Positions 5,318 through 17,537 of a DNA stretch of 20,133 nt are shown in pieces. Each line of letters opens with the position of its first letter. The first letter of the stretch is position 1. The translations under genes were made by a program, and so were the position numbers. Origin of the DNA: a virus; the IMG/VR virus record IMGVR_UViG_3300025168_000906, positions 1 through 20,133 of that record. One strand, given 5' to 3'. Below the pieces are notes generated by a model. That model saw only the letters and a list, made by a program, of their open reading frames with translations. It was not told the DNA's origin and did not search any database.

Positions 5318-6226
5318 TTACGCACCTGCATTGCCGTATATGCCACGCCAGTCAGACCAGCCGAAGCTGTATCTTTCTCTTGCTTTATATCTAACATTAC
5401 CAGTATCGAAGTCGCCTTCCATAGCTGTTTTTAATGGTGCTCTAACAAAGTGCTTCATTCCATTTGGAACATCTGTTTTAAGAAACCAAGCATCTGAATC
5501 AGTTAAGTAATGGTTCACAGTATAACCTTGTGGAACCATACCCATGTTTTTCAGTGCATTGATATCATTATCAGCCGTACCAACTCTACCTTGAGATTTC
5601 ATAATTCTCTCAGCAGTGAATTGCAATTCTTTAGGAATGATCATTTTCGTTCCTTGCGCTGCAATTTTAAGACCTCTCTCATCTTGGTAGCCAGCGATAT
5701 CAATTAACGCTTGCTCTAAAGATGTTTCAGAAAGATCCGCTGCTGTAGTAGGGATGTTTGACTGATTTCCATTAAGTGTAGGGTGAGCGTTACCGCATAA
5801 AGATTCACCATCTCCGCCATTAAAGCCGGTTGCTGCGAATGCATTAATTAGAACGTTTGCACCTTTAACTTGTTTGGATGTTGCCATTGAACGAGCTAGT
5901 GCTTTTGTATAACGAGAAGAGATTCTGTCGTAGAGATTATCTTCGATAGCTTCTTCTGTTAAAGCGAAAGCTAATGCTATTGTTTCCATTGTGTATCTAG
6001 CTGTGTACGTTTCCTGAGCATCGTCGTATTGAACGCCGGATCCTTCAGGTTTTGTATCAGCAGTACCGAAACCACTTAACATTACTTCTTCCTCAAAAGC
6101 TCTATCAGATGATTCTTGATCGAATATCTGATTTGCTTCGTTTTCGTATCTTTTGTATTCCAAGCCGAAAAGTGCATTCAAACCTGGTTCTAGTTCTTTA
6201 ACTAGCTGTGCTCGTGATATTGCCAT
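5318..6226 (-). CDS. Major capsid protein, HK97-type fold
   Basis: A 302-aa protein beginning MAISRAQLVKELEPGLNALFGLEYKRYEN. It shows the usual head-protein order: an N-terminal arm; a region after ESSDRAFEEEVMLSGFGTADTKPEG (about 39-62) that fits the extended loop; and then helical stretches ARYTMETIALAFALTEEAIEDNLYD (76-100) and YTKALARSMATSKQVKGANVLINAFA (106-131). A C-terminal domain with TKMIIPKELQFTAERIM and WFLKTDVPNGMKHFVRAPL follows. It ends in VRYKARERYSFGWSDWRGIYGNAGA, a C-terminus typical of Mu gpT-like and marine-phage capsid proteins. The gene follows scaffold and head genes and has a strong AGGAG site that overlaps the previous stop codon. About 33 kDa, so no large insertion domain. 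Function is confident by context and pattern; the fold is inferred. Confidence 0.88.
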   Translation of the reverse strand: MAISRAQLVKELEPGLNALFGLEYKRYENEANQIFDQESSDRAFEEEVMLSGFGTADTKPEGSGVQYDDAQETYTARYTMETIALAFALTEEAIEDNLYDRISSRYTKALARSMATSKQVKGANVLINAFAATGFNGGDGESLCGNAHPTLNGNQSNIPTTAADLSETSLEQALIDIAGYQDERGLKIAAQGTKMIIPKELQFTAERIMKSQGRVGTADNDINALKNMGMVPQGYTVNHYLTDSDAWFLKTDVPNGMKHFVRAPLKTAMEGDFDTGNVRYKARERYSFGWSDWRGIYGNAGA

Positions 6227-6238
6227 GTTTTTATGCTC

Positions 6239-6859
6239 CTATATTCCCGCAACAGTTTGAGAATATTTCAAGTTTTGTACAACTATAATATTTGCAAACG
6301 TGTTTGCGAAATCGCTGTTATCCGGATCTTCAGCTCTTCTTAGAGCTAGCCAACCGAATGCACCACCTGCTGCTGGAGTAGTTAACGAAGTGTTAGATCT
6401 ACCTCCTACAGAAGTGCCTGAAGCAGAAGTGTCAGCTGTTCCGCCGAAAATAGCTTGTATGTTATTTTCAGTCGGTGCGCCAGCAATTGCTGATGTCAGA
6501 GCGATTTGGTATTCTTGGAAAGGGTTGTCGTTAACGAATGCAGTGATGAGTTCTCCTGCTACCACTCCGACCGCGTTTAAATACGCATTATTCCATGTAG
6601 GTTTACTTGTAGTCGATGCATTGTAAAAACAACCATTGAATACGCCTAAGAAATTATTGTTAGTCGAAGCACAACCGTTAGTTAAAAATCCACCAGCAGC
6701 AACTACTGCCGTTTGATCTAAAATAACTGGTTCGCCTTGGTAGATATTGAACGCGGCACCGTTTTCGATTTGGTATCTAGATTGACCAGATGTCGCTGGA
6801 GTATTTCCAAGCGTCATTACTGGCGTTAATCCACTACCTTGTGTTTGTCGATTTGCCAT
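6239..6859 (-). CDS. Head-associated structural protein (206 aa), possible decoration protein
   Basis: A 206-aa protein beginning MANRQTQGSGLTPVMTLGNTP. Its composition is Ala/Gly/Asn/Thr rich. Segments AFNIYQGEPVILDQTAVVAAG, FLGVFNGCFYNAST, NAVGVVAGELITAFVNDNPFQEYQIAL and GWLALRRAEDPDNSDFANTFANIIVVQNLKY alternate in a beta pattern. The YxGEPV and FxV-DPxxxF features resemble small head proteins encoded immediately before the major capsid gene in many marine phages. It stops 12 nt before the capsid start. The ribosome binding site is AAAAGG about 11 nt from the ATG, a long spacing, downstream of an 8-bp hairpin. A decoration or capsid-stabilising role is the best guess. Confidence 0.7.
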   Translation of the reverse strand: MANRQTQGSGLTPVMTLGNTPATSGQSRYQIENGAAFNIYQGEPVILDQTAVVAAGGFLTNGCASTNNNFLGVFNGCFYNASTTSKPTWNNAYLNAVGVVAGELITAFVNDNPFQEYQIALTSAIAGAPTENNIQAIFGGTADTSASGTSVGGRSNTSLTTPAAGGAFGWLALRRAEDPDNSDFANTFANIIVVQNLKYSQTVAGI

Positions 6860-6956: not shown

Positions 6957-7421
6957 TTAATCGTCCTTTTTTGCACCACCGAAACTATACGAAGTACGCC
7001 TTTGACTGCTCATTGGCATACTTGGATGTTGATCCTTTAGAGGCTCGTTTTCTACTGCTTCGTTTTTTTGTTGCGCCATTTTTTGAAAATGTGCATCACG
7101 TTGCTTCGCGAGTTCTTCCGGCATTCTAGCCAACACTAGACCACCTACTCCTATGTACCCTTTATACCGACCTTGCTCTAAAGCGGGAAAGTTAGCTTGA
7201 GGATAGGCATCAGCTCTTACGAGTTCCCATCCTTGTCTTAACTTAGCGGTGATATTTTTAGTATCATCTACGCCCATCGTTTCAAAACGAATCCAACGCT
7301 GTCTATAGCCGTCCGGACATTTAGGTGCATCTAAGTGAGATGAATTCACCCAAACCTTTGGTCTTTCAGATTCAGACCTAGTTTGCTGAGCACGAGGGGT
7401 TTTATTTTCTTGTTTATTCAT
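6957..7421 (-). CDS. Hypothetical phage protein (154 aa) between scaffold and head genes
   Basis: A 154-aa hydrophilic protein. The N-terminal 25 residues are polar and probably disordered (MNKQENKTPRAQQTRSESER). A more ordered core follows, VWVNSSHLDAPKCPDGYRQRWIRFETMG (about 23-50), then LRQGWELVRADAYPQ and YKGYIGVGGLVLARMPEELAKQRDAHF. The tail is Gln/Ser/Lys rich and ends GGAKKDD. The PDGYxxRWIR, GWELVRADxYP and GGLVLARMP pattern is one I recall from many marine phages at this same place, of unknown function. Translation is likely strong: a full AAGGAGGT site lies within the end of the scaffold gene. The arrangement scaffold, this gene, head protein, capsid suggests a procapsid role. Confidence 0.75.
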   Translation of the reverse strand: MNKQENKTPRAQQTRSESERPKVWVNSSHLDAPKCPDGYRQRWIRFETMGVDDTKNITAKLRQGWELVRADAYPQANFPALEQGRYKGYIGVGGLVLARMPEELAKQRDAHFQKMAQQKNEAVENEPLKDQHPSMPMSSQRRTSYSFGGAKKDD

Positions 7422-7425
7422 ATGC

Positions 7426-8430
7426 TTATACCTCCTTCATGGTTAATTGTCTTGCATAGTCTTCTAGTGGCACGCTTAATTTTTTAGCTATTGCTACCTG
7501 TGAAGGCGTGAGAGTCACAGTTTTGCGACCAGGTTTTATGTTTCGTGCGGCTGATGAAGACGCAGAAGCAACCGTCTGTACGGGTTTGGTCGAAGTCGTA
7601 TTTCCAGTTCTATCAAATTTATGGGGAAAGTCAACCTTAATTCTTTTGTCTATTTCTACATAGTATTCATTAGATTTGGGATCAAAACCTTCTTTTTCCA
7701 CTAAATCCTTATGGATTTCAAAAGCAGTAAATGTCATAGCTCGGTCTTGACCGAACCATATATTTTTCTCTGCCCAAGCTTGTGCTTGTGGATCAGGAGG
7801 AGTTTCACTAGGAAGCTCTTTCGGAGTTTCCCTATGTCTCATATGATCTTGTGTATCGGGTGTTCTAGCTGTTTCTTTTTTTTCAGAACGATATTTCTCC
7901 GCAGCGCCAAGTCTAGCTTCCTCAATAGACAAAGCAGCAATTTTTCTATTGGCTGCAACTTGTTTTTGAGCGTCTCCATTTTCAATGGCAGAAGCTAATT
8001 CTTGTTGTGCTGAAGTCATACTTTCTTTTACTTTTTCAGAAAAAGCTTTATCGTATTTTTCTTCTGTAGTTTGAAACTGATTTCTAGTAATTTCTATTTC
8101 ACGTTTAGCTCCAGCTGCATAATCTAATGCTGCTTTTTCTCTACGTTCAGCTTCTCTTTTTTGTCGAGTTAATTTAGAAATTCTTTTTTGAACTCCTTCA
8201 CTATACTCTTTTAATTTATCTTCTTTAGTTTCTACTGGTTCTTCTTTTACTGATTCTTCTACTACTTTTATTTCTTCTACTGGTTCTACAATAGGTTCCG
8301 TTACTGGCGCAGCTTCGGCTTCTTTAACGGTATCATCCGGTAAATCTACTTCAACGGCTGGGCCTGTTGTATCAAGAGGAACTGACTTAACTTCTTCTAC
8401 CTCTACTTTTTTTACTTCTTCGTCTGGCAT
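7426..8430 (-). CDS. Capsid scaffolding protein
   Basis: A 334-aa protein with the composition and layout of a scaffold. The N-terminal 70 residues are very acidic and Val/Glu/Pro rich. A long Lys/Glu/Arg-rich coiled coil follows (about 70-188: YSEGVQKRISKLTRQKREAERREKAAL, then KYDKAFSEKVKESM, QVAANRKIAALSIEEARLGAAEKY). A middle domain has QAWAEKNIWFGQDRAMTFTAFEIHKDL (218-243), and a basic C-terminal segment has GRKTVTLTPSQVAIAKKLSVPLEDYARQL (301-329). The last part matches the usual short helical capsid-binding end. Its place directly before the head and capsid genes supports this. The scaffold would fill the procapsid and be released on maturation; no protease gene is visible nearby. Confidence 0.87.
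   Translation of the reverse strand: MPDEEVKKVEVEEVKSVPLDTTGPAVEVDLPDDTVKEAEAAPVTEPIVEPVEEIKVVEESVKEEPVETKEDKLKEYSEGVQKRISKLTRQKREAERREKAALDYAAGAKREIEITRNQFQTTEEKYDKAFSEKVKESMTSAQQELASAIENGDAQKQVAANRKIAALSIEEARLGAAEKYRSEKKETARTPDTQDHMRHRETPKELPSETPPDPQAQAWAEKNIWFGQDRAMTFTAFEIHKDLVEKEGFDPKSNEYYVEIDKRIKVDFPHKFDRTGNTTSTKPVQTVASASSSAARNIKPGRKTVTLTPSQVAIAKKLSVPLEDYARQLTMKEV
7430..7437 (-). promoter_or_regulatory. Full-length Shine-Dalgarno site AAGGAGGT inside the scaffold stop region
   Basis: On the minus strand AAGGAGGT spans the last codons of the scaffold gene (Lys-Glu-Val) and lies 8 nt before the ATG of the 154-aa gene. It is complementary to eight bases of the usual 16S rRNA tail, stronger than the sites of its neighbours. 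It fixes the start of the 154-aa gene and suggests that product is made in quantity together with the scaffold. Confidence 0.8.
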
Positions 8431-8448: not shown

Positions 8449-8868
8449 TTAAAACTCGTGGACAATGTCCTCCGGGTCTTGTATGGTTGCGATGATTTCA
8501 TCATCGTTTAATAGGCGTACTTCGCCACCTTCTATCTTAAACCTAGATCCTGCATAACGAGCGAATATAACCCAATCGCCTTCCTTGCACCATGGACCTT
8601 CGGGATATCTTTCTTTATTCTTATAAGCATCTGGACCAACAGCTAATACATTACCACATACAGTAGCAAGTTGTTGTCGTTCTATTTGCTCATCAGAATA
8701 TATAATTCCACCTTTAGTTTTTTTCTTACCTTTAAAAGGCAATACTAAAAGTCTCCAACCAGTAGGTACTGGTAGTTTACTTGATTGTTCTTTGTATTTT
8801 TCTTCTAATGCTAATTTAATATTTGGGTTGTTTTTTGATGTCGATGACGCTTCCTGTGTGTTTTTCAT
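8449..8868 (-). CDS. GroES-like co-chaperonin (Cpn10 family)
   Basis: A 139-aa protein. After a polar N-terminal extension of about 35 residues it follows the GroES pattern: PTGWRLLVLPF (35-45), a Lys-rich mobile-loop equivalent holding KTKGGIIYSDE (50-60, with GGII matching the chaperonin-binding GGIVL of GroES), then GNVLAVGPDAY (72-82), KEGDWVIFARYAGSRFKI (95-112) and EVRLLNDDEIIATI (116-129). GroES caps the host GroEL ring; phage T4 gp31 and RB49 CocO replace it to fold the capsid protein. Here the gene stands directly before scaffold and capsid, so capsid folding with host GroEL is the likely job. AGGAG precedes the ATG by 5 nt. The start overlaps the previous gene by 53 nt. No GroEL gene is present. 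Confidence 0.85.
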   Translation of the reverse strand: MKNTQEASSTSKNNPNIKLALEEKYKEQSSKLPVPTGWRLLVLPFKGKKKTKGGIIYSDEQIERQQLATVCGNVLAVGPDAYKNKERYPEGPWCKEGDWVIFARYAGSRFKIEGGEVRLLNDDEIIATIQDPEDIVHEF

Positions 8869-9055
8869 ATTGCTCCTTTTTTTCTAGCAGGTTGGATATC
8901 TCCTGTAAGATGGCTTCATAAGCCTTGATTTGTCCTACGTTATACTTGTAAGATTCTATATTGTCAATGCTTCCTGAAGTAATTGATACAGTCAATGCAC
9001 TTAAAGCATTTCGAATGTCTACTCTTAGACTTTGTATTAAACTATTATTTTCCAT
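8816..9055 (-). CDS. Small helical hypothetical protein (79 aa)
   Basis: A 79-aa protein beginning MENNSLIQSLRVDIRNALSALTVSI. It appears mostly alpha-helical: SLIQSLRVDIRNALSAL (5-21) and KAYEAILQEISNLLEKKEQYEKH (44-66), separated by a loop holding YKYNVGQIK. Proteins with the N-terminal pattern MENNxLIQxLRxDIR and the YKYxxGxI motif are, as I recall, frequent in marine phages immediately before the head genes. A chaperone-assisting or regulatory role is possible, but nothing decides it. Its 3' end overlaps the co-chaperonin start by 53 nt in a different frame. It begins 1 nt after the stop of the Lys/His-rich gene. Confidence 0.7.
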   Translation of the reverse strand: MENNSLIQSLRVDIRNALSALTVSITSGSIDNIESYKYNVGQIKAYEAILQEISNLLEKKEQYEKHTGSVIDIKKQPKY

Positions 9056-10135: not shown

Positions 10136-12652
10136 CTATGATTTTGGACCTTTTAATGTATTAACGTCTTTTCGTTTAATATTTGCAACGTCCATTTTAA
10201 CTCTATCAGACATTGTTTGCTTGGTCAAAGAAGTATCTGCTCTTAAATGAGCTAATTCTTCATTTTGCTCTAATTTATCGTCTTCAATACCCTCTCTAGA
10301 TATTAATTTAGCATTTTCAATATTTTTACGTTGAGTTAGTTCTTCTTCTTTTCTTTGAGTATCCATAGCTTTTAAATCAATTTCTCGAGATTTAAGTTTA
10401 AGTAATGGATCATGATCAAACTGAGAAGTAATTTTTTTCTCTTCCTTCATAAAGTCTTCACTAATCTCAGCTACCAAAGCAGCTTTTCTAGCCTCTATCT
10501 TTTGCTGTATTTGTTGCATTTGCATTTGTATCTGTTGATCCTGAGGATTCTGCTGAGACATTTGCATCATTTGTTGCATTTGAGCTGTTTCTTCTGGAAA
10601 CTCCATTTGAACTTGTTCAGTAGCCATTAAGCTAATGTGTTCTAAAATATTTTTTTCTATGGCAGCCATGACGACCGGGTTATTACGTACCATATTCATG
10701 GCCATAAAATGTAAGTGTGCACTTACATGTGCTCTATGGTCTTGTCCCTGATAAGCTTGAAAATTTTTCTGAGCTAAAGCATCAATATGCTCTAACGCAG
10801 GATCTTTAGGCTGTGGGGGTGGCGGAGGAGGTAACACCTTATCGATGTCCTTAATTCCTAACGCCGTATACATTGTACGATAACATTCATATAAGTTATG
10901 CATTTTGGGGTTTGACATAGCTAACTGTAATTCAGTTTGAGCCATACTTATTCGTTGCGTCTGACTATTTATATTAGGATCAGCAACTGGTAAAATGTCT
11001 ATCCGTTCGTCGAAGTCTGCTGCTTTGATCGTTCTTTGCGCACCTACAACATCATAAGGATATTCAGGTGGTAAAGATTGACCAAATACTTTTGCTAGAA
11101 GTTTAAACTCATCTCTAAGTCCTGCGTACAATCTTTTGTGAATTGCACTCATAACTCTTGAGCCTCTTTCTAATAAAGCGACTGTAGTTCCTACAGCTGC
11201 TCCTTGATTTCCATCGCCTACTTGCATATCGGCAATAGAAGCAAATCGTTGTCCTGCCTCTACAACTGTTCCCATCAGTTGCATTAGAACCGGTGATGGT
11301 TCTTTATAAGGCAAATTCATAAATGAATCTTTTAAATTTCCTCCAGGAGCGTCTACATCTCTCCATTCTCCTGGTTGTAATGGAGAAGCATCATCTCTTA
11401 TTCTAATACCTCTCATTTTAAATCCGGCTGGTAAATTGGATAATGTACCAGCATCTAATAATTGGCGGAGAGCGACCGTTGCGGTACGACTCAATCCGCC
11501 AATCATATGTATTAATCCGAAACCATAAAATCCTAGTCCAGGCAGAAATTTGAAATGGACGAAATATTGGATTTTACGTTTGTTTGGATCGTTGGGCGCA
11601 TAGTTCTTTCTGATTGAAAGAACTGTACGGCTTCCTGCATCGATTGTAACGATGTAGGGTAGTTTGATCCCTGTAGGTTCTCCAGTTTGTGGATTAGTGT
11701 CTTCGAAGCCCTCCAGGTCCAAATTCGTGTGGCACTCATACAGAGTGTAAATATCTTCAGGTTTAGTTCTTTTTTGACCTTCTAAATCTCTTTCTTTTGT
11801 TTTTAATTCATCTTCTATAATAGGCGGGGTTCCTAATTCTACATCTCTGTAAAAACCAGCCACTTGTTGTTTTCTAATTTCGTTAGAAGACATTTTAACA
11901 ACATGAATAATACATTCTGCATCTTCTAAACTAGTTGCTGAATAAGGAACAAGTAAATCATCCGCTTGAACAAATTTAGAAACCGCTTGTTGTTTAATGT
12001 CATCATAATAAACTTTTTTAAAAGTAGATCCTGCTAATGGTAAATAGAAAAGCATTTGATCAAAATCTTCATCATAACCTTCCATTTCATCCATCAACAT
12101 AAAATTCATGTAATTTTTAACACGTTGTGCTTGTTGATCTTTTTGAGGTGTTGAAATTCCCATAACCTGTGTTCTTACAGGGCCACCTGCGGGTAGTAAT
12201 TCTTTGTAAGCTTGCGCTTGAAATTGTGTAACTGCTTCTGCTAAAACTGGGTGCGTGGCACCTGAAGCTCCATCAAAAGGTTGTGTTCTTGTTTGGTATT
12301 TGAATCCTAATAAATCAAGTCCTTGAATATAAGTTGATTCCCATTCTTTACGAGAAACTTTATAATCCATTTGTTTTTCATAAAGATCTGATCCTAAAGG
12401 ACTTAAAGCATTTTCAGGTAAAAGTTCTGCTAAATTTGCGTTGTGATCATCGGGATTACCAGGTTTAACTTGAGAAGGATCGAAATTAACTTCAACGCCT
12501 CCATCACCCAGTTCCGTGATCCGTGGACCTTCAGTCTCAGTTTTTGTTTCACTAATATCAACATCAACTCCAGCTTCTTCTCTATCTGCATCCAGATTTT
12601 GAATATTAGGTAAGGCCTTTTCTATAGGCGAATATTTATTATCATCTGCCAT
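10136..12652 (-). CDS. Portal protein
   Basis: An 838-aa protein beginning MADDNKYSPIEKALPNIQN. It has an acidic N-terminal part (to about 85), then the portal pattern FKYQTRTQPFDGASGATHPVLAEAVTQFQAQAYKELL (about 117-153), and ALSTFKKVY-like motif GSTFKKVYYDD (208-218). Further in, it has YFVHFKFLPGLGFYGFGLIHMIGGLSRTATVALRQLLDAGTLSNLPAG (363-410) and VGTTVALLERGSRVMSAIHKRL (487-508). The dodecameric portal is the DNA entry channel to which the terminase docks. After six prolines (608-613) comes a long helical Met/Gln/Lys-rich C-terminus (to 838), probably a barrel. The start is TAATG-coupled to the 1049-aa gene. It is longer than P22 gp1 (725 aa); the family resembles SU10- and N4-like portals, by memory. 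Confidence 0.88.
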   Translation of the reverse strand: MADDNKYSPIEKALPNIQNLDADREEAGVDVDISETKTETEGPRITELGDGGVEVNFDPSQVKPGNPDDHNANLAELLPENALSPLGSDLYEKQMDYKVSRKEWESTYIQGLDLLGFKYQTRTQPFDGASGATHPVLAEAVTQFQAQAYKELLPAGGPVRTQVMGISTPQKDQQAQRVKNYMNFMLMDEMEGYDEDFDQMLFYLPLAGSTFKKVYYDDIKQQAVSKFVQADDLLVPYSATSLEDAECIIHVVKMSSNEIRKQQVAGFYRDVELGTPPIIEDELKTKERDLEGQKRTKPEDIYTLYECHTNLDLEGFEDTNPQTGEPTGIKLPYIVTIDAGSRTVLSIRKNYAPNDPNKRKIQYFVHFKFLPGLGFYGFGLIHMIGGLSRTATVALRQLLDAGTLSNLPAGFKMRGIRIRDDASPLQPGEWRDVDAPGGNLKDSFMNLPYKEPSPVLMQLMGTVVEAGQRFASIADMQVGDGNQGAAVGTTVALLERGSRVMSAIHKRLYAGLRDEFKLLAKVFGQSLPPEYPYDVVGAQRTIKAADFDERIDILPVADPNINSQTQRISMAQTELQLAMSNPKMHNLYECYRTMYTALGIKDIDKVLPPPPPPQPKDPALEHIDALAQKNFQAYQGQDHRAHVSAHLHFMAMNMVRNNPVVMAAIEKNILEHISLMATEQVQMEFPEETAQMQQMMQMSQQNPQDQQIQMQMQQIQQKIEARKAALVAEISEDFMKEEKKITSQFDHDPLLKLKSREIDLKAMDTQRKEEELTQRKNIENAKLISREGIEDDKLEQNEELAHLRADTSLTKQTMSDRVKMDVANIKRKDVNTLKGPKS

Positions 12653-15600
12653 TATTTAATCCACTTGTTGTATATATCACCAGGCTGTAAAGAACGCAAC
12701 CCTCCCATTTGAGGAGTGGGTCCTGATAAAGGAGGCGGGCCTGACGCAACGCCGCCCATGGATTTTTTAAGCCTAATAGGCAAGTTATTCTCCCCTTCAA
12801 TCCAATCGCCATCCGCGTTTTGAGTTCCTGTTGCATCACCAAAATGCTCGTCTGTTCTATTATACAGTTTTATTTCATTAGCGGCTTTTATTTTATCTTT
12901 TTTAGTCATGCCTACAACCCATTCTTCCATAGCTGCTACAATTTCATCTGCATCATTAACATAATCTAAGTACGTTTCTGAATCGGGGTTAGGATTATCT
13001 GGAGTTGTGCTTGTATAATCTGGTTCTGTATATGAAAATTCAGGTTCAGTAATAACCACTTCTTCTTTAGAAAGTCCTTGTCCTAATTCATCGGCAGCGT
13101 AGTTTTGTGTTCCTGTTTCTCCAGGTTGGTAATACATAGATCTTTCTATGTCGTCACCATAATTATCAGTGCTTCTCCAAGAAATATGAAAAGCTCCATC
13201 CTTCATAACTTCTATTTGTACTGGAACTTGTTCTGTTCTAGTTTCACTATGTTTACCTGTACTTCCCCAGTGATCTTTTTCACCTTTTGATGTAATAGGA
13301 TTACCATCGGGATCACTTTTGATTCCACGGTCCTTATTAGTAGAAGTATAATATTTTCGTTTTACCGGCAGCATCACTTGGTATGAAGCACCTTCAATAA
13401 AATTTTTATCGGGTAATCCTTTTAAAGCTCCCTTTTGTGTTGTTGCTTTTAAAATAAATTGTGGAAGCCATTCTGGCATTCCTCCTTGAACACTTTCAAA
13501 TGTTCGGGCTACCTTTGCCACATCTTTTACTTTTTTTCCTGTTAATATATCAGGTACAAATTTACCTATAGCTGCCATTATTCCAGCTACTCCTACTGTT
13601 TTTATGAAATCTCTTTTAGCCATATCAACCTGACCTTCGCTAGCCTCTTTAATTTTTTTAAATTTCGCAGCAGAGGCCGTTTTTAAAGCCTTGGGAAGAG
13701 CTGCATATAATAAAAAAGGATCTGCTATCATTCCAGCTAGCTCAGCACCTAGGGCAACTGATTTAACACCTTCGGGAACATTTCCTTCTCCAAATCTTTT
13801 TGTTAAACCTTCTAAACCTTCGTCAGCTTTTTGAGATAAACCTGTTTTATCTCCCCATGATAAATCAGGAGATAAAAAATCCATCCAATTCATTTCATTA
13901 TTATTTTCTTTTAAATACTTTTCCATGTCGTCTTTAGACTGGTAAGGTGCCAAACCTTTTTTATGTAATTCTTTAAATACGTGAGGAACAATCTCAACCA
14001 TCCACTCAGCTGTTTCTACAACGCCTTTACCTAAATTAGCTCCAGTCATTTTTAAACCTTCTTTAGTTCCAAAAGATTTTTTCATAACATCGGCTTGATA
14101 AGCAGGGATGATTCCAAAAGATTCGTCATCTTTGTATTCTGATTTATGTTTGTAACCATCAGCATTAGCTTTTTGTCTATCTTCATAATCTTTTCTATCT
14201 GCGTCAGCATTTTTTGCTGCGATCTTTGCCAACACATTAGGGTCTGTGCTATCTAACATTTTTTCCCAACCTCTAGAGTCACCCATCATAGAACCATCAC
14301 GGTACTCGAGCCTTGGGACAATACCACCTTCAGCCATGTTTAATTTATCTCCGATCATTCCCAAAAACTCATTTGTTTGTTTAGCATCTTCTCCTGGTGT
14401 TAAAGGAAAATCAGATAAAATACCGGGACCATCCCAAGTTTTATATTTATCTCCAAACATCATTTGATTAGCAACCATAGCAGGAAGTAATCCTTTTGCT
14501 ACAAGTCGCTTAGCAACTTTTTTGCTCATTTCTTTAAATGGTATATTAGCTCCTAGTTTATTTTTTCCTTTAAATCTCATTGGATTGCCACCAATAGGTT
14601 TTAATTTTCCAGTTTCTAAATCAAAAGTTTCAAAATATAAAAGACCTCTTAATGCTTTAGGTATTTTATCGCTTTCGCGTCTAGCTAAAAAATTAATTTC
14701 TTTAATTCTTCGTTCCCATCCTTTAGGTTTATTTTCAACTAATTCGAGTAATTCTTTTCCTAAAGTATTTCTTGCTTTTTCAAAATTTTGTAATTTTACA
14801 GAATTAGTTTTAATATCTAATTCTCCTATATCATTCCAGCTTGGAGAAATAGCTAGAATCTTATCTCCCAATTTTATTCCTTTTAAACGTCCATGATGTA
14901 TAGGCATATCTTTAGTTCCTATAGGTGTAATTTTATTAGGATCACCTGCTTTTTTAATATCATATTTTACTTTTTTAGCGGCTAGTTCTTCTGCTTTAGA
15001 AACTTTTTTAAAATCTAAACCCATATCATTAGCAACTCGATTAATCTGCTTGCTAATAACAGCATCAGCCGTTCCTTCGTCAAAATATTTAGCAAACTCT
15101 TTAATATTCATTGTTTGTTGAGGTCCAACTCTTGTTCCGCTTTTATATTTTCTAATATCAGCCAAAAGGTTTTCTTTATCCGCACCAGAAAGAACTCTTT
15201 CAATTCTGCTGCCGGCTTTAGTACTTTCTGCTGATTTTGCAATTCTTGTTTCTTTGGATGTGGCTGTCATCCCTGGCGTTAATTCTAAATTAGCTCTTTT
15301 TAAAACTTCTTTAATATTAACTCTTTTATTATCTAAAGTTTTAGAGTTATCCAGAGTCACTTTTTCCATGATTTCTGCTATATAGGGCTTTCTCCCTGTT
15401 GCTTCTAAAATCTCTGCATAAATTTTTTTAATTTGTTTAGCTAAAGGTTTCTCTCTTCCATCTATACCCCCACTTCCTGTCGGTGGTGTTTTTTTAGGAT
15501 TATTTATTTTATTTCTTAAAATCTCAAAATCTTCTGCTAAATCTTGTTGAGGATAAACTTGATCTCCTCTTATTCCTTCTCCTGCCATACTAATACGAGT

Positions 15601-15801
15601 TTTTGCAGGAGCAAATCTGTGTTTGTTTTGTATGTCTATTAATTTTTTATATTCAGGAGATAGAGATAAAGATCCTCTGTCTTTAAATCCTACTCTTCCC
15701 CCTTTATTTAAATATTGTTGTCCTAAATTTTTTCTTATAGGCGTGGGATTATCAGAACTATCTAATTCATTCGTTTGTGGATTAAAAATAAAATAAGCCA
15801 T
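12652..15801 (-). CDS. Large multi-domain phage protein (1049 aa), possible internal virion protein
   Basis: A 1049-aa protein of unknown function between the terminase and portal genes. In order: a short start with LNKGGRVGFKDRGSLS (31-46); a helix-turn-helix-like stretch IKKIYAEILEATGRKPYIAEIMEK (124-147); a Lys-rich linker; a segment with PIHHG (300-304) and SWNDIG (321-326) that loosely recalls HNH-type nucleases; FNR-like basic helices to about 445; a MAEGGIVPRLEYRDGS motif (489-504); a hydrophobic patch VALGAELAGMIADPFLLYAALP (682-703); a twin-arginine-like segment AKRDFIKTVGVAGIMAAIG (728-746); and a Thr/Ser-rich C-terminus ending GGVASGPPPLSGPTPQMGGLRS. The start shares TAATG with the 578-aa gene, and its end with the portal. 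Long proteins with these GGRV and GGIV motifs are common here in marine phages. A virion-internal or ejected role is inferred from position. Confidence 0.6.
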   Translation of the reverse strand: MAYFIFNPQTNELDSSDNPTPIRKNLGQQYLNKGGRVGFKDRGSLSLSPEYKKLIDIQNKHRFAPAKTRISMAGEGIRGDQVYPQQDLAEDFEILRNKINNPKKTPPTGSGGIDGREKPLAKQIKKIYAEILEATGRKPYIAEIMEKVTLDNSKTLDNKRVNIKEVLKRANLELTPGMTATSKETRIAKSAESTKAGSRIERVLSGADKENLLADIRKYKSGTRVGPQQTMNIKEFAKYFDEGTADAVISKQINRVANDMGLDFKKVSKAEELAAKKVKYDIKKAGDPNKITPIGTKDMPIHHGRLKGIKLGDKILAISPSWNDIGELDIKTNSVKLQNFEKARNTLGKELLELVENKPKGWERRIKEINFLARRESDKIPKALRGLLYFETFDLETGKLKPIGGNPMRFKGKNKLGANIPFKEMSKKVAKRLVAKGLLPAMVANQMMFGDKYKTWDGPGILSDFPLTPGEDAKQTNEFLGMIGDKLNMAEGGIVPRLEYRDGSMMGDSRGWEKMLDSTDPNVLAKIAAKNADADRKDYEDRQKANADGYKHKSEYKDDESFGIIPAYQADVMKKSFGTKEGLKMTGANLGKGVVETAEWMVEIVPHVFKELHKKGLAPYQSKDDMEKYLKENNNEMNWMDFLSPDLSWGDKTGLSQKADEGLEGLTKRFGEGNVPEGVKSVALGAELAGMIADPFLLYAALPKALKTASAAKFKKIKEASEGQVDMAKRDFIKTVGVAGIMAAIGKFVPDILTGKKVKDVAKVARTFESVQGGMPEWLPQFILKATTQKGALKGLPDKNFIEGASYQVMLPVKRKYYTSTNKDRGIKSDPDGNPITSKGEKDHWGSTGKHSETRTEQVPVQIEVMKDGAFHISWRSTDNYGDDIERSMYYQPGETGTQNYAADELGQGLSKEEVVITEPEFSYTEPDYTSTTPDNPNPDSETYLDYVNDADEIVAAMEEWVVGMTKKDKIKAANEIKLYNRTDEHFGDATGTQNADGDWIEGENNLPIRLKKSMGGVASGPPPLSGPTPQMGGLRSLQPGDIYNKWIK

Positions 15802-17537
15802 TATTCTACACGTCCTCCATCAGCGAAATCTGTATCTCCTGGAAAATCTCCCCAATCAAACTCAGGCATAAAATCTTCATATTGAATTTTGGCTTGATCG
15901 GCCATTTCACCTCTTACCCAAGCTAATGCATCATTAGGACTCTGTCCTTCTTCTTTCATAACTTTTCTAGCTTTTCTTATAATATCAATTTCTTGTAAGT
16001 TATAGCCTTCTTGAGCTAAATCAATATCAGTTAATTCTTTTTCAAAATTTTTCATTAGACGAATGTTAGGTCTATCTCTTTTAGCAGCTGTTTGTTTATA
16101 GGCATCAGAACCTGGTAAAACTTTAGTGTCTTTACCACCAACTACTTTAAGATCAGGTTTACCTGATTCAGTAATTGGATAGCCAGGTTTGGCATCAATT
16201 CCTAATGCTTTAGTAATATCATCATATTTTTTATTTCCTTTTGAAATAACTTCAAAATCTTTTTTAGATTCTAATATTGAATCTAAAACTGCATCTTTGT
16301 TAAGTTTGCCATCTGCAGAAAATAAATTATCTTTAGAAGGTGTAACATCAGAGGGGAAGTTTTCTGGTTTTAGATACTGCTGAAATTCTTCTGATTGTTT
16401 AGCTAAATCATCTAATGTAAATTTTTTGTGTTCAGGATCAGCTCTTGCCCAATAAGGATCATCACCATAAGCAATGTGATTCATTGCTTCGTCAATTTCA
16501 TCAATTGATGTTTTAATTTGATCTTGAGATAAATACTCGCCGGCTTTAACAGGTCCTGCTTTGGTTTTAGCAAGCAAACCATTTTTCATAGCTTTATCTG
16601 TTAACTTCATTTTACCTAAGTCTGTATAAATATCGGTTTCAGATAAACCAGGTGCCATATCATCTAATATTTTAAAAGCATCTTCACCAAAGTGATATCT
16701 AAATACATCCACAGGATCGACAGTCACTAAACGAATAGCGCCGCCTCCTTGCATATCTGCAGCAGAAGTAAGCTGTCGAAGGTGTTCATCAGACAATTGA
16801 ATTAATCCTCTGTTGTGAGCTTCTATTAAAATAGGTCTAGCAATAGCTCTTCTTGTACCTGTGTTTTTAAGAGTCTGAGAAGGGCCTAGATCATCTAGTA
16901 GTTTTTTAAAATTAAGTCTTCCATCATCATCAATAATACCTATTTCTTTATTTGATCTTTCCATATCTTTTATTAATGCATCAGACTTTCTTTTCATCAA
17001 ATCAAACTCGTAACCTAATTCTTCCATGGTTTGAGGTGCATTAGCGTCAAAATCTTCATTATATTTAGAAGATGCTTTAGTTGCATTCATATCTTTTTCA
17101 TATTTCAAATAAGCGTCTTCAGGTTTGATTTTATCTTTATAAAACTTACTTTCTAAGTCATTTAATTTTGTTTGCGTTCTTTTCCACTTATCAATGTTGG
17201 TTTCCCAGTTTTTTAACTTAGTTTTGTCCAGTGTAAGAGTATTTTCAAAAATTTCTTTACTTGTTCGAGCAATTTCTGCATCGAGTAGTTTATATTCGTT
17301 TAATAAGTGATAATATTGTCCCTCGGCTCCAACTCGCTCAATAGAATACTTTGAAATGTTAGGATCATACATTAAAGGACTTTCTAAAAGCATATATTTG
17401 CCTTTATCCTTTTTGGTCATGATTCGACCATCAATACCGGGCATCTTAACTTGAATTTTTCCAACTTTGCCCGCAACTCTCTCAGCTTGCTTGGTATTCA
17501 TACCAAACGACTTTAAAAATTTTATAAACTTATCCAT
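15801..17537 (-). CDS. Large hypothetical phage protein (578 aa) between terminase and portal
   Basis: A 578-aa hydrophilic protein. The first part (1-70) is basic; residues 74-190 form a coiled-coil-rich segment (YHLLNEYKLLDAEIARTSKE, WETNIDKWKRTQTKLNDLES). A central conserved-looking block follows: NTGTRRAIARPILIEAHNRG (225-244), SAADMQGGGAIRLVTVDPVDVFRYHFGEDA (258-287). I recall this latter pattern, with ADMQ and VDPV.LFRYY.GE, in marine phage proteins at this location. The C-terminus is acidic with GDTDFADGGRVE. The start lies 8 nt inside the terminase gene and the stop shares TAATG with the 1049-aa gene. No enzyme motif is evident. A virion-internal, ejection or portal-associated role is possible; the name 'hypothetical' is safer. 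Confidence 0.65.
   Translation of the reverse strand: MDKFIKFLKSFGMNTKQAERVAGKVGKIQVKMPGIDGRIMTKKDKGKYMLLESPLMYDPNISKYSIERVGAEGQYYHLLNEYKLLDAEIARTSKEIFENTLTLDKTKLKNWETNIDKWKRTQTKLNDLESKFYKDKIKPEDAYLKYEKDMNATKASSKYNEDFDANAPQTMEELGYEFDLMKRKSDALIKDMERSNKEIGIIDDDGRLNFKKLLDDLGPSQTLKNTGTRRAIARPILIEAHNRGLIQLSDEHLRQLTSAADMQGGGAIRLVTVDPVDVFRYHFGEDAFKILDDMAPGLSETDIYTDLGKMKLTDKAMKNGLLAKTKAGPVKAGEYLSQDQIKTSIDEIDEAMNHIAYGDDPYWARADPEHKKFTLDDLAKQSEEFQQYLKPENFPSDVTPSKDNLFSADGKLNKDAVLDSILESKKDFEVISKGNKKYDDITKALGIDAKPGYPITESGKPDLKVVGGKDTKVLPGSDAYKQTAAKRDRPNIRLMKNFEKELTDIDLAQEGYNLQEIDIIRKARKVMKEEGQSPNDALAWVRGEMADQAKIQYEDFMPEFDWGDFPGDTDFADGGRVE

Follow-up and report, generated by a model that had tools for sequence, protein, structure and literature searches.

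Why would a phage whose major capsid protein (MCP) has only 302 aa keep a GroES of its own among its head genes? The question is raised by the window analysed here, a stretch of 20,133 nucleotides (IMG/VR record IMGVR_UViG_3300025168_000906, positions 1 to 20,133), which carries a 139-aa GroES-like gene on its minus strand (8449–8868).

The locus encodes a Cpn10 co-chaperonin

The groES reading frame runs from an ATG at 8868 to a stop at 8449. Its product has a sole Pfam match, PF00166 (Cpn10), covering profile positions 4–93 of 93 at 47.5 bits (E 1.8e-12; curated cut-off 21.1 bits), and it matches the PHROGs family phrog_3188, “co-chaperonin GroES”, at 71.6 bits (E 7e-20). The best relatives of solved structure are Thermus and other Cpn10 chains, with Thermus Cpn10 at E 1e-10. 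The AlphaFold2 monomer model (mean pLDDT 83.6, pTM 0.73) shows a Cpn10 fold with the mobile loop in place; in Foldseek its best match is again Thermus Cpn10 (E 8e-8, probability 1.00), TM-scores by target length are about 0.6–0.78 for bacterial Cpn10, and the best PDB matches are GroES chains, many of them within GroEL complexes, T4 gp31 being a weaker match (E 1e-3). All four Cpn10 core motifs quoted in the first-pass annotation are present in the reading frame, and the profile matches are far beyond chance. Profile, fold and conservation rule out a fortuitous match or mis-assignment as Cpn10, and profile, alignment and predicted structure confirm the protein as a genuine phage-encoded Cpn10/GroES co-chaperonin with an intact GroEL-contact loop, as that annotation had proposed; the contact with GroEL itself is predicted. 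Pairwise dN/dS against seven close relatives is 0.085–0.25, a range that also holds the MCP and portal of the same contigs, and the gene is under purifying selection.

An AAGGAG ribosome-binding site (8869–8882, minus strand) lies a few bases 5′ of the groES ATG, the upstream sequence being ...AAAAAAAGGAGCAAT then ATG, and no other ATG, GTG or TTG occurs in the first 40 codons. A wrong start codon is thus ruled out, and the N-terminal extension of the protein is, judging from this single Shine-Dalgarno (SD)-supported start, very probably translated. The groES start overlaps the 3′ end of an upstream 79-aa gene (9055–8816) by 53 nt (8816–8868, minus strand), and a similar overlap is seen in HTVC027P, 023Pt_psg01 and HTVC023P.

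The mobile loop is lengthened and the roof is kept

The GroEL-contact motif, KTKGGIIY, occupies residues 50–57, within the mobile loop and following segment (residues 48–71, KKKTKGGIIYSDEQIERQQLATVC; 8656–8727, minus strand), which contains a four-residue insertion. Between G24, in the contact motif, and G38 (E. coli numbering), the loop spans 18 residues in 206 of 211 phage copies and 14 in all 51 bacterial copies, nearly all of them alphaproteobacterial; of 29 Chloroflexota Cpn10 sequences, 26 have a span of 14, two of 15 and one of 16. The five phage copies that depart from 18 are two truncated fragments, MW202796 (19 residues) and two members of a distant MW202601-like clade (22 and 21). 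The inserted residues and their surroundings (59–68) are modelled as a helix with good confidence. The contact loop is among the best conserved parts of the phage family, with its second G in 61 and its T in 57 of 63 non-redundant members, and conserved positions across the family include T51, G54, G72, G78, W99, G107, R118, D122 and the C-terminal P132. The roof loop (residues 78–97, GPDAYKNKERYPEGPWCKEG; 8578–8637, minus strand) is retained with its aromatics conserved, spanning 19 residues as against 18 in E. coli GroES and 11 in gp31.

The N-terminal extension, previously put at 35 residues, does exist, although alignment gives it a length of about 30 residues beyond E. coli Met1 (8779–8868, minus strand). 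It is mostly of low confidence in the AlphaFold model (pLDDT 43–65 over residues 1–30), with a short helix predicted at residues 20–27. At least 20 residues precede the E. coli start position in 178 of the 182 family members with an SD-supported ATG; the extension is nearly absent in QDWS535 and two spring-water phages, and is thus dispensable for basic function. At the other end, a conserved tail (residues 131–139, DPEDIVHEF; 8452–8478, minus strand) runs past the E. coli terminus, with P132 in 54 of 63 representatives. The preserved KTKGGII and roof, taken with the four extra loop residues, the N-terminal extension and the conserved tail, would suit a specialised lid better than a spare copy, and the longer mobile loop may alter the cage or the affinity of the lid.

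The same features could be read in another way, namely that the Cpn10 fold now serves the head as a structural or assembly component and no longer works with GroEL, as the location in the head module, the terminal extensions and the conserved aromatic roof might suggest. We regard this as highly improbable, because such a part would sit poorly with the strong conservation of the GroEL-contact loop and because the table published for B8b, another GroES-bearing phage, gives virion peptides for neighbouring structural proteins and none for GroES (PMC4294664).

groES lies in a conserved head module

In the window, the terminase gene (19002–17530) is followed in order by an SU10-like portal gene (10136–12652, minus strand; 838 aa; PF23899 E 1.7e-13, phrog_1216 E 4.6e-73), small genes, groES, a 334-aa gene that is scaffold-like by position (7426–8430, minus strand; phrog_28737 E 1.5e-86, with a weak match to a head-scaffolding family at E 0.007), two conserved block genes with PHROGs matches (154 aa, 6957–7421, minus strand, phrog_36003; 206 aa, 6239–6859, minus strand, phrog_37556) and the 302-aa MCP gene (5318–6226, minus strand; Phage_capsid_4, PF25209 E 3.4e-14; phrog_371 major head protein, E 1.3e-19). 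The earlier description of groES as lying directly before scaffold and capsid holds for the scaffold-like gene but not for the capsid gene, from which it is separated by the 154- and 206-aa genes. The interval that separates terminase from portal (12652–17537, minus strand) is taken up by two very large ORFs, of 1049 and 578 aa; at the equivalent position DSL-LC04 has an annotated PcfJ-like protein.

The order portal, small genes, GroES, ~334 aa, 154 aa, 200 aa and capsid is common to the window, HTVC027P and HTVC023P, and is also found in 023Pt_psg01, DSL-LC04, Planktothrix phage Pag-Yong1, Caulobacter phage RW, Alcaligenes phage QDWS535 and several spring-water phages; Roseobacter phage CRP-902 shares its GroES-to-capsid part. 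The GroES proteins of HTVC023P, HTVC027P and 023Pt_psg01 are 47–54% identical to that of the window, occupy the same slot before the scaffold-like gene in the same head block and differ from it by sequence divergence only, and the window is of the HTVC023P type. GroES is already listed in PMC9599517 as one of 13 core genes of HTVC023P-type pelagiphages, and its presence here is mostly expected. As described in PMC10149686, CRP-901 and CRP-902 have the structural module but not the replication genes in common with HTVC023P phages, arguing that GroES travels with the head module. What we add is not a new kind of system but new details, the co-inheritance counts and the four-residue lengthening of the loop, of which we found no mention in two open-access papers naming both HTVC023P and GroES.

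Within this block, the 206-aa protein is 95% identical to that of one relative (L004) and only 52–58% identical to those of five others, the capsid and GroES genes of which are 80–94% identical to the window's. This pattern suggests exchange or diversifying change, as might be seen in a surface or decoration protein. Searches of solved structures with the 206-aa protein and the 302-aa capsid protein returned no match.

GroES is co-inherited with the capsid family

The window's capsid protein, used as a query against 50,697 phage records, matched 21. Seventeen of these coincide with the full set of 17 records obtained with the GroES query, and an eighteenth carries an annotated GroES at the corresponding position; GroES is present in every one of the 18 records whose capsid reaches 36% identity. 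As for the remaining records, vir526 has an annotated 10-kDa chaperonin near its terminase gene and MW202601 has a Cpn10, recognised by profile, at another place in its genome; MW202604, with capsid match coordinates equal to those of MW202601, was left out of separate examination. With the capsid protein as sole query, all IMG/VR loci that had sufficient upstream sequence carried GroES 2.0–3.4 kb upstream of the capsid gene (medians 2.1 and 2.4 kb): 53 of 53 for the window capsid and 58 of 58 for the MW202675 capsid. Two distant capsid clades (~25–27% identity) have an empty GroES slot, and Cpn10 is found elsewhere in all five searched records of at least 44 kb; the distant-clade records without Cpn10 are all shorter than that, the longest having 35 kb. 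Cpn10 is present in 26 of 26 records of the window's phage type, in 24 of them over the curated cut-off, and is otherwise rare, an E. coli GroES query having matched 116 of the 50,697 records, with jumbo phages or host sequence accounting for many of these matches. A control set of 20 HTVC019P-type records (same host, T7-like head; 18–43 kb) and Pam1 contained Cpn10 in 0 of 21. Co-inheritance of GroES with the window's capsid family is thus complete among the contigs examined, although these counts are of records related by descent rather than of independent events, and co-inheritance within a tight gene block can reflect common descent instead of function.

The suggestion, made when the gene was first noticed, that it serves a specific head client is strengthened by this complete association, which includes distant relatives with the gene elsewhere, and by the lack of GroES in phages that share the host but have a different head; both point, at the level of sequence, to a client in the head. 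They also speak against the idea that the gene is a dosage booster, i.e., a generic GroES that raises the supply of lids as late proteins flood the cell and has no special client. Its contact motif and roof do resemble those of ordinary GroES, and T4 gp31 is able to fold host proteins too (PMC6318259). However, GroES is kept with one head type and is missing from other phages of the same host, the near-invariant loop insertion and the conserved tail would be superfluous in a generic copy, and the sequence is distant from that of host GroES and groups separately; we therefore consider a mere booster unlikely.

Which head protein would be served is a separate matter. The portal gene is co-inherited with GroES as fully as the capsid gene, so that co-inheritance does not single out a client within the head module; the terminase query matched 2,947 records and hence marks a far wider set of phages than GroES or capsid. 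The lid might accordingly be dedicated to the portal (838 aa), the scaffold-like protein (334 aa) or the 154- or 206-aa proteins. The location of groES immediately upstream of the scaffold-like gene and the co-inheritance of the portal would agree with this, and in lambda GroE is needed for portal assembly. Against it, the portal, at about 94 kDa, would be too big for whole enclosure, and the capsid protein would be by far the most abundant head product. We take a client other than the capsid protein to be possible but clearly the lesser prospect.

No GroEL in the related records searched

GroEL/Cpn60 is found in 0 of 26 related records (40–91 kb), so a phage-encoded partner is excluded among them and the partner must be that of the host. 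This agrees with the initial reading that the gene lacks a GroEL partner; within the 20-kb window itself, every ORF of GroEL size other than the two large ones at 12652–17537 is explained by position. A 62-kb contig of a Pelagibacteraceae single-cell genome (L291, 6001–6423) carries a 63% identical copy of the phage GroES family, and a normal host GroES sits on a separate contig of that assembly; this is consistent with the phages infecting SAR11 cells.

A dedicated lid for host GroEL is the probable role

Taken together, our analysis makes it probable that the 139-aa protein is a lid for host GroEL dedicated to the folding of a phage head protein, a role that we consider the most likely because of the precedent of T4 gp31 and gp23 (PMC3012670). 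A GroES-type heptamer would cap host GroEL and help a head protein to fold during the late burst of capsid synthesis. As to the client of such a lid, we lean, with moderate confidence, towards the 302-aa MCP (33 kDa). Against this explanation, a 33-kDa capsid protein would fit an ordinary GroEL cage, and related PF25209 capsids of other phages are found, by sequence search, without GroES, so the fold is not always dependent on it. It had been remarked earlier that cage size may not be the reason for a phage GroES here; with a capsid protein of 33 kDa this is a sensible view, yet the mobile loop is lengthened, as in gp31. Cage size in the gp31 sense is an unlikely reason for a client of 33 kDa, though less so in view of the longer loop.

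PF25209 capsids and the origin of the phage GroES

In a tree of 52 Cpn10 domains over 100 columns, which does not place the root of the slot family, that family clusters together (SH-aLRT 95), separate from host-type sequences, and vir526-type copies lie outside the cluster, next to gp31, with long branches. With so few columns and with long branches meeting, the tree no more than suggests separate acquisitions of GroES. Recent capture of a host gene is unlikely, as the slot family stands as a separate, long-branched group and its loop span is absent from 51 of 51 bacterial sequences. The virus vir526 (L090, 100–456), assigned to Methanomicrobiales, has a distant capsid relative together with its own chaperonin.

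A PF25209 capsid is also combined with GroES in siphoviruses 1/44, 2.096.O and relatives, and B8b, and close capsid relatives in that group have GroES in 8 of 8; in the two siphoviruses examined closely, GroES has an ordinary loop span and lies among tail genes. In L458 (3492–3797) and L461 (3486–3806), the ordinary-loop GroES sits just before the major tail protein gene, together with a protease-capsid fusion (PF25209). The F10, mEp043 and Rhodobacter phage groups, with more distant PF25209 capsids, gave no match to the siphovirus GroES by sequence search, so a phage GroES is not a general requirement of PF25209 capsids and the capsid fold by itself does not call for a phage lid. A tentative wider proposal, which we hold as conceivable at somewhat less than even confidence, is that the slot family is a distinct lineage co-evolved with a PF25209-type capsid, in which the helical four-residue insertion and the kept roof would tune the GroEL cage or lid affinity for the capsid protein of these phages, unlike gp31, and that PF25209-class phages gained GroES more than once, with different positions and spans of 14, 18 and 21–22.

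Comparison with known co-chaperonins

The leading case of a capsid-dedicated phage lid remains T4 gp31. That dedication is usually explained by the large size of gp23. Here, an abundant marine and freshwater phage group keeps a lid alongside a capsid protein of a mere 33 kDa, with the loop lengthened and the roof intact. Co-inheritance and the lengthened loop make the dedicated-lid reading testable, and the question of which property makes a capsid protein require a dedicated GroES can be addressed with small proteins in laboratory E. coli.

The window's protein shares the Cpn10 fold and contact motif with bacterial GroES (E. coli, alphaproteobacterial hosts, Thermus), yet differs in its four additional mobile-loop residues, its N-terminal extension, its C-terminal tail and the lack of a groEL neighbour. 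The GroES of the Shewanella, Vibrio and Pseudoalteromonas siphoviruses (1/44, 2.096.O, B8b) likewise lies in a morphogenesis cluster of PF25209-capsid phages, but has the standard 14-residue span and a position among tail genes; the siphovirus capsid domain stands at the end of a longer polypeptide, for which the annotation is a fusion of protease and capsid. In T4, gp31 replaces GroES while GroES cannot replace gp31 in folding gp23, and comparable gp31 homologues favour their own gp23 (PMC3012670). Like the window's protein, T4 gp31 and RB49 CocO are phage co-chaperonins without a phage GroEL, and gp31, the known client of which is the T4 capsid protein, also has a lengthened mobile loop (PMC3012670, PMC6318259), of 22 residues as against 16 in GroES, with its roof loops lost (PMC6318259). 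The two proteins nevertheless show no close sequence kinship to that of the window. Moreover, the insertion follows the GGI motif in the window's protein and mostly precedes it in gp31, the roof loop is kept in the former and lost in the latter (19 versus 11 residues), and the gp31 gene lies outside the T4 head cluster, whereas groES of the window lies within the head genes.
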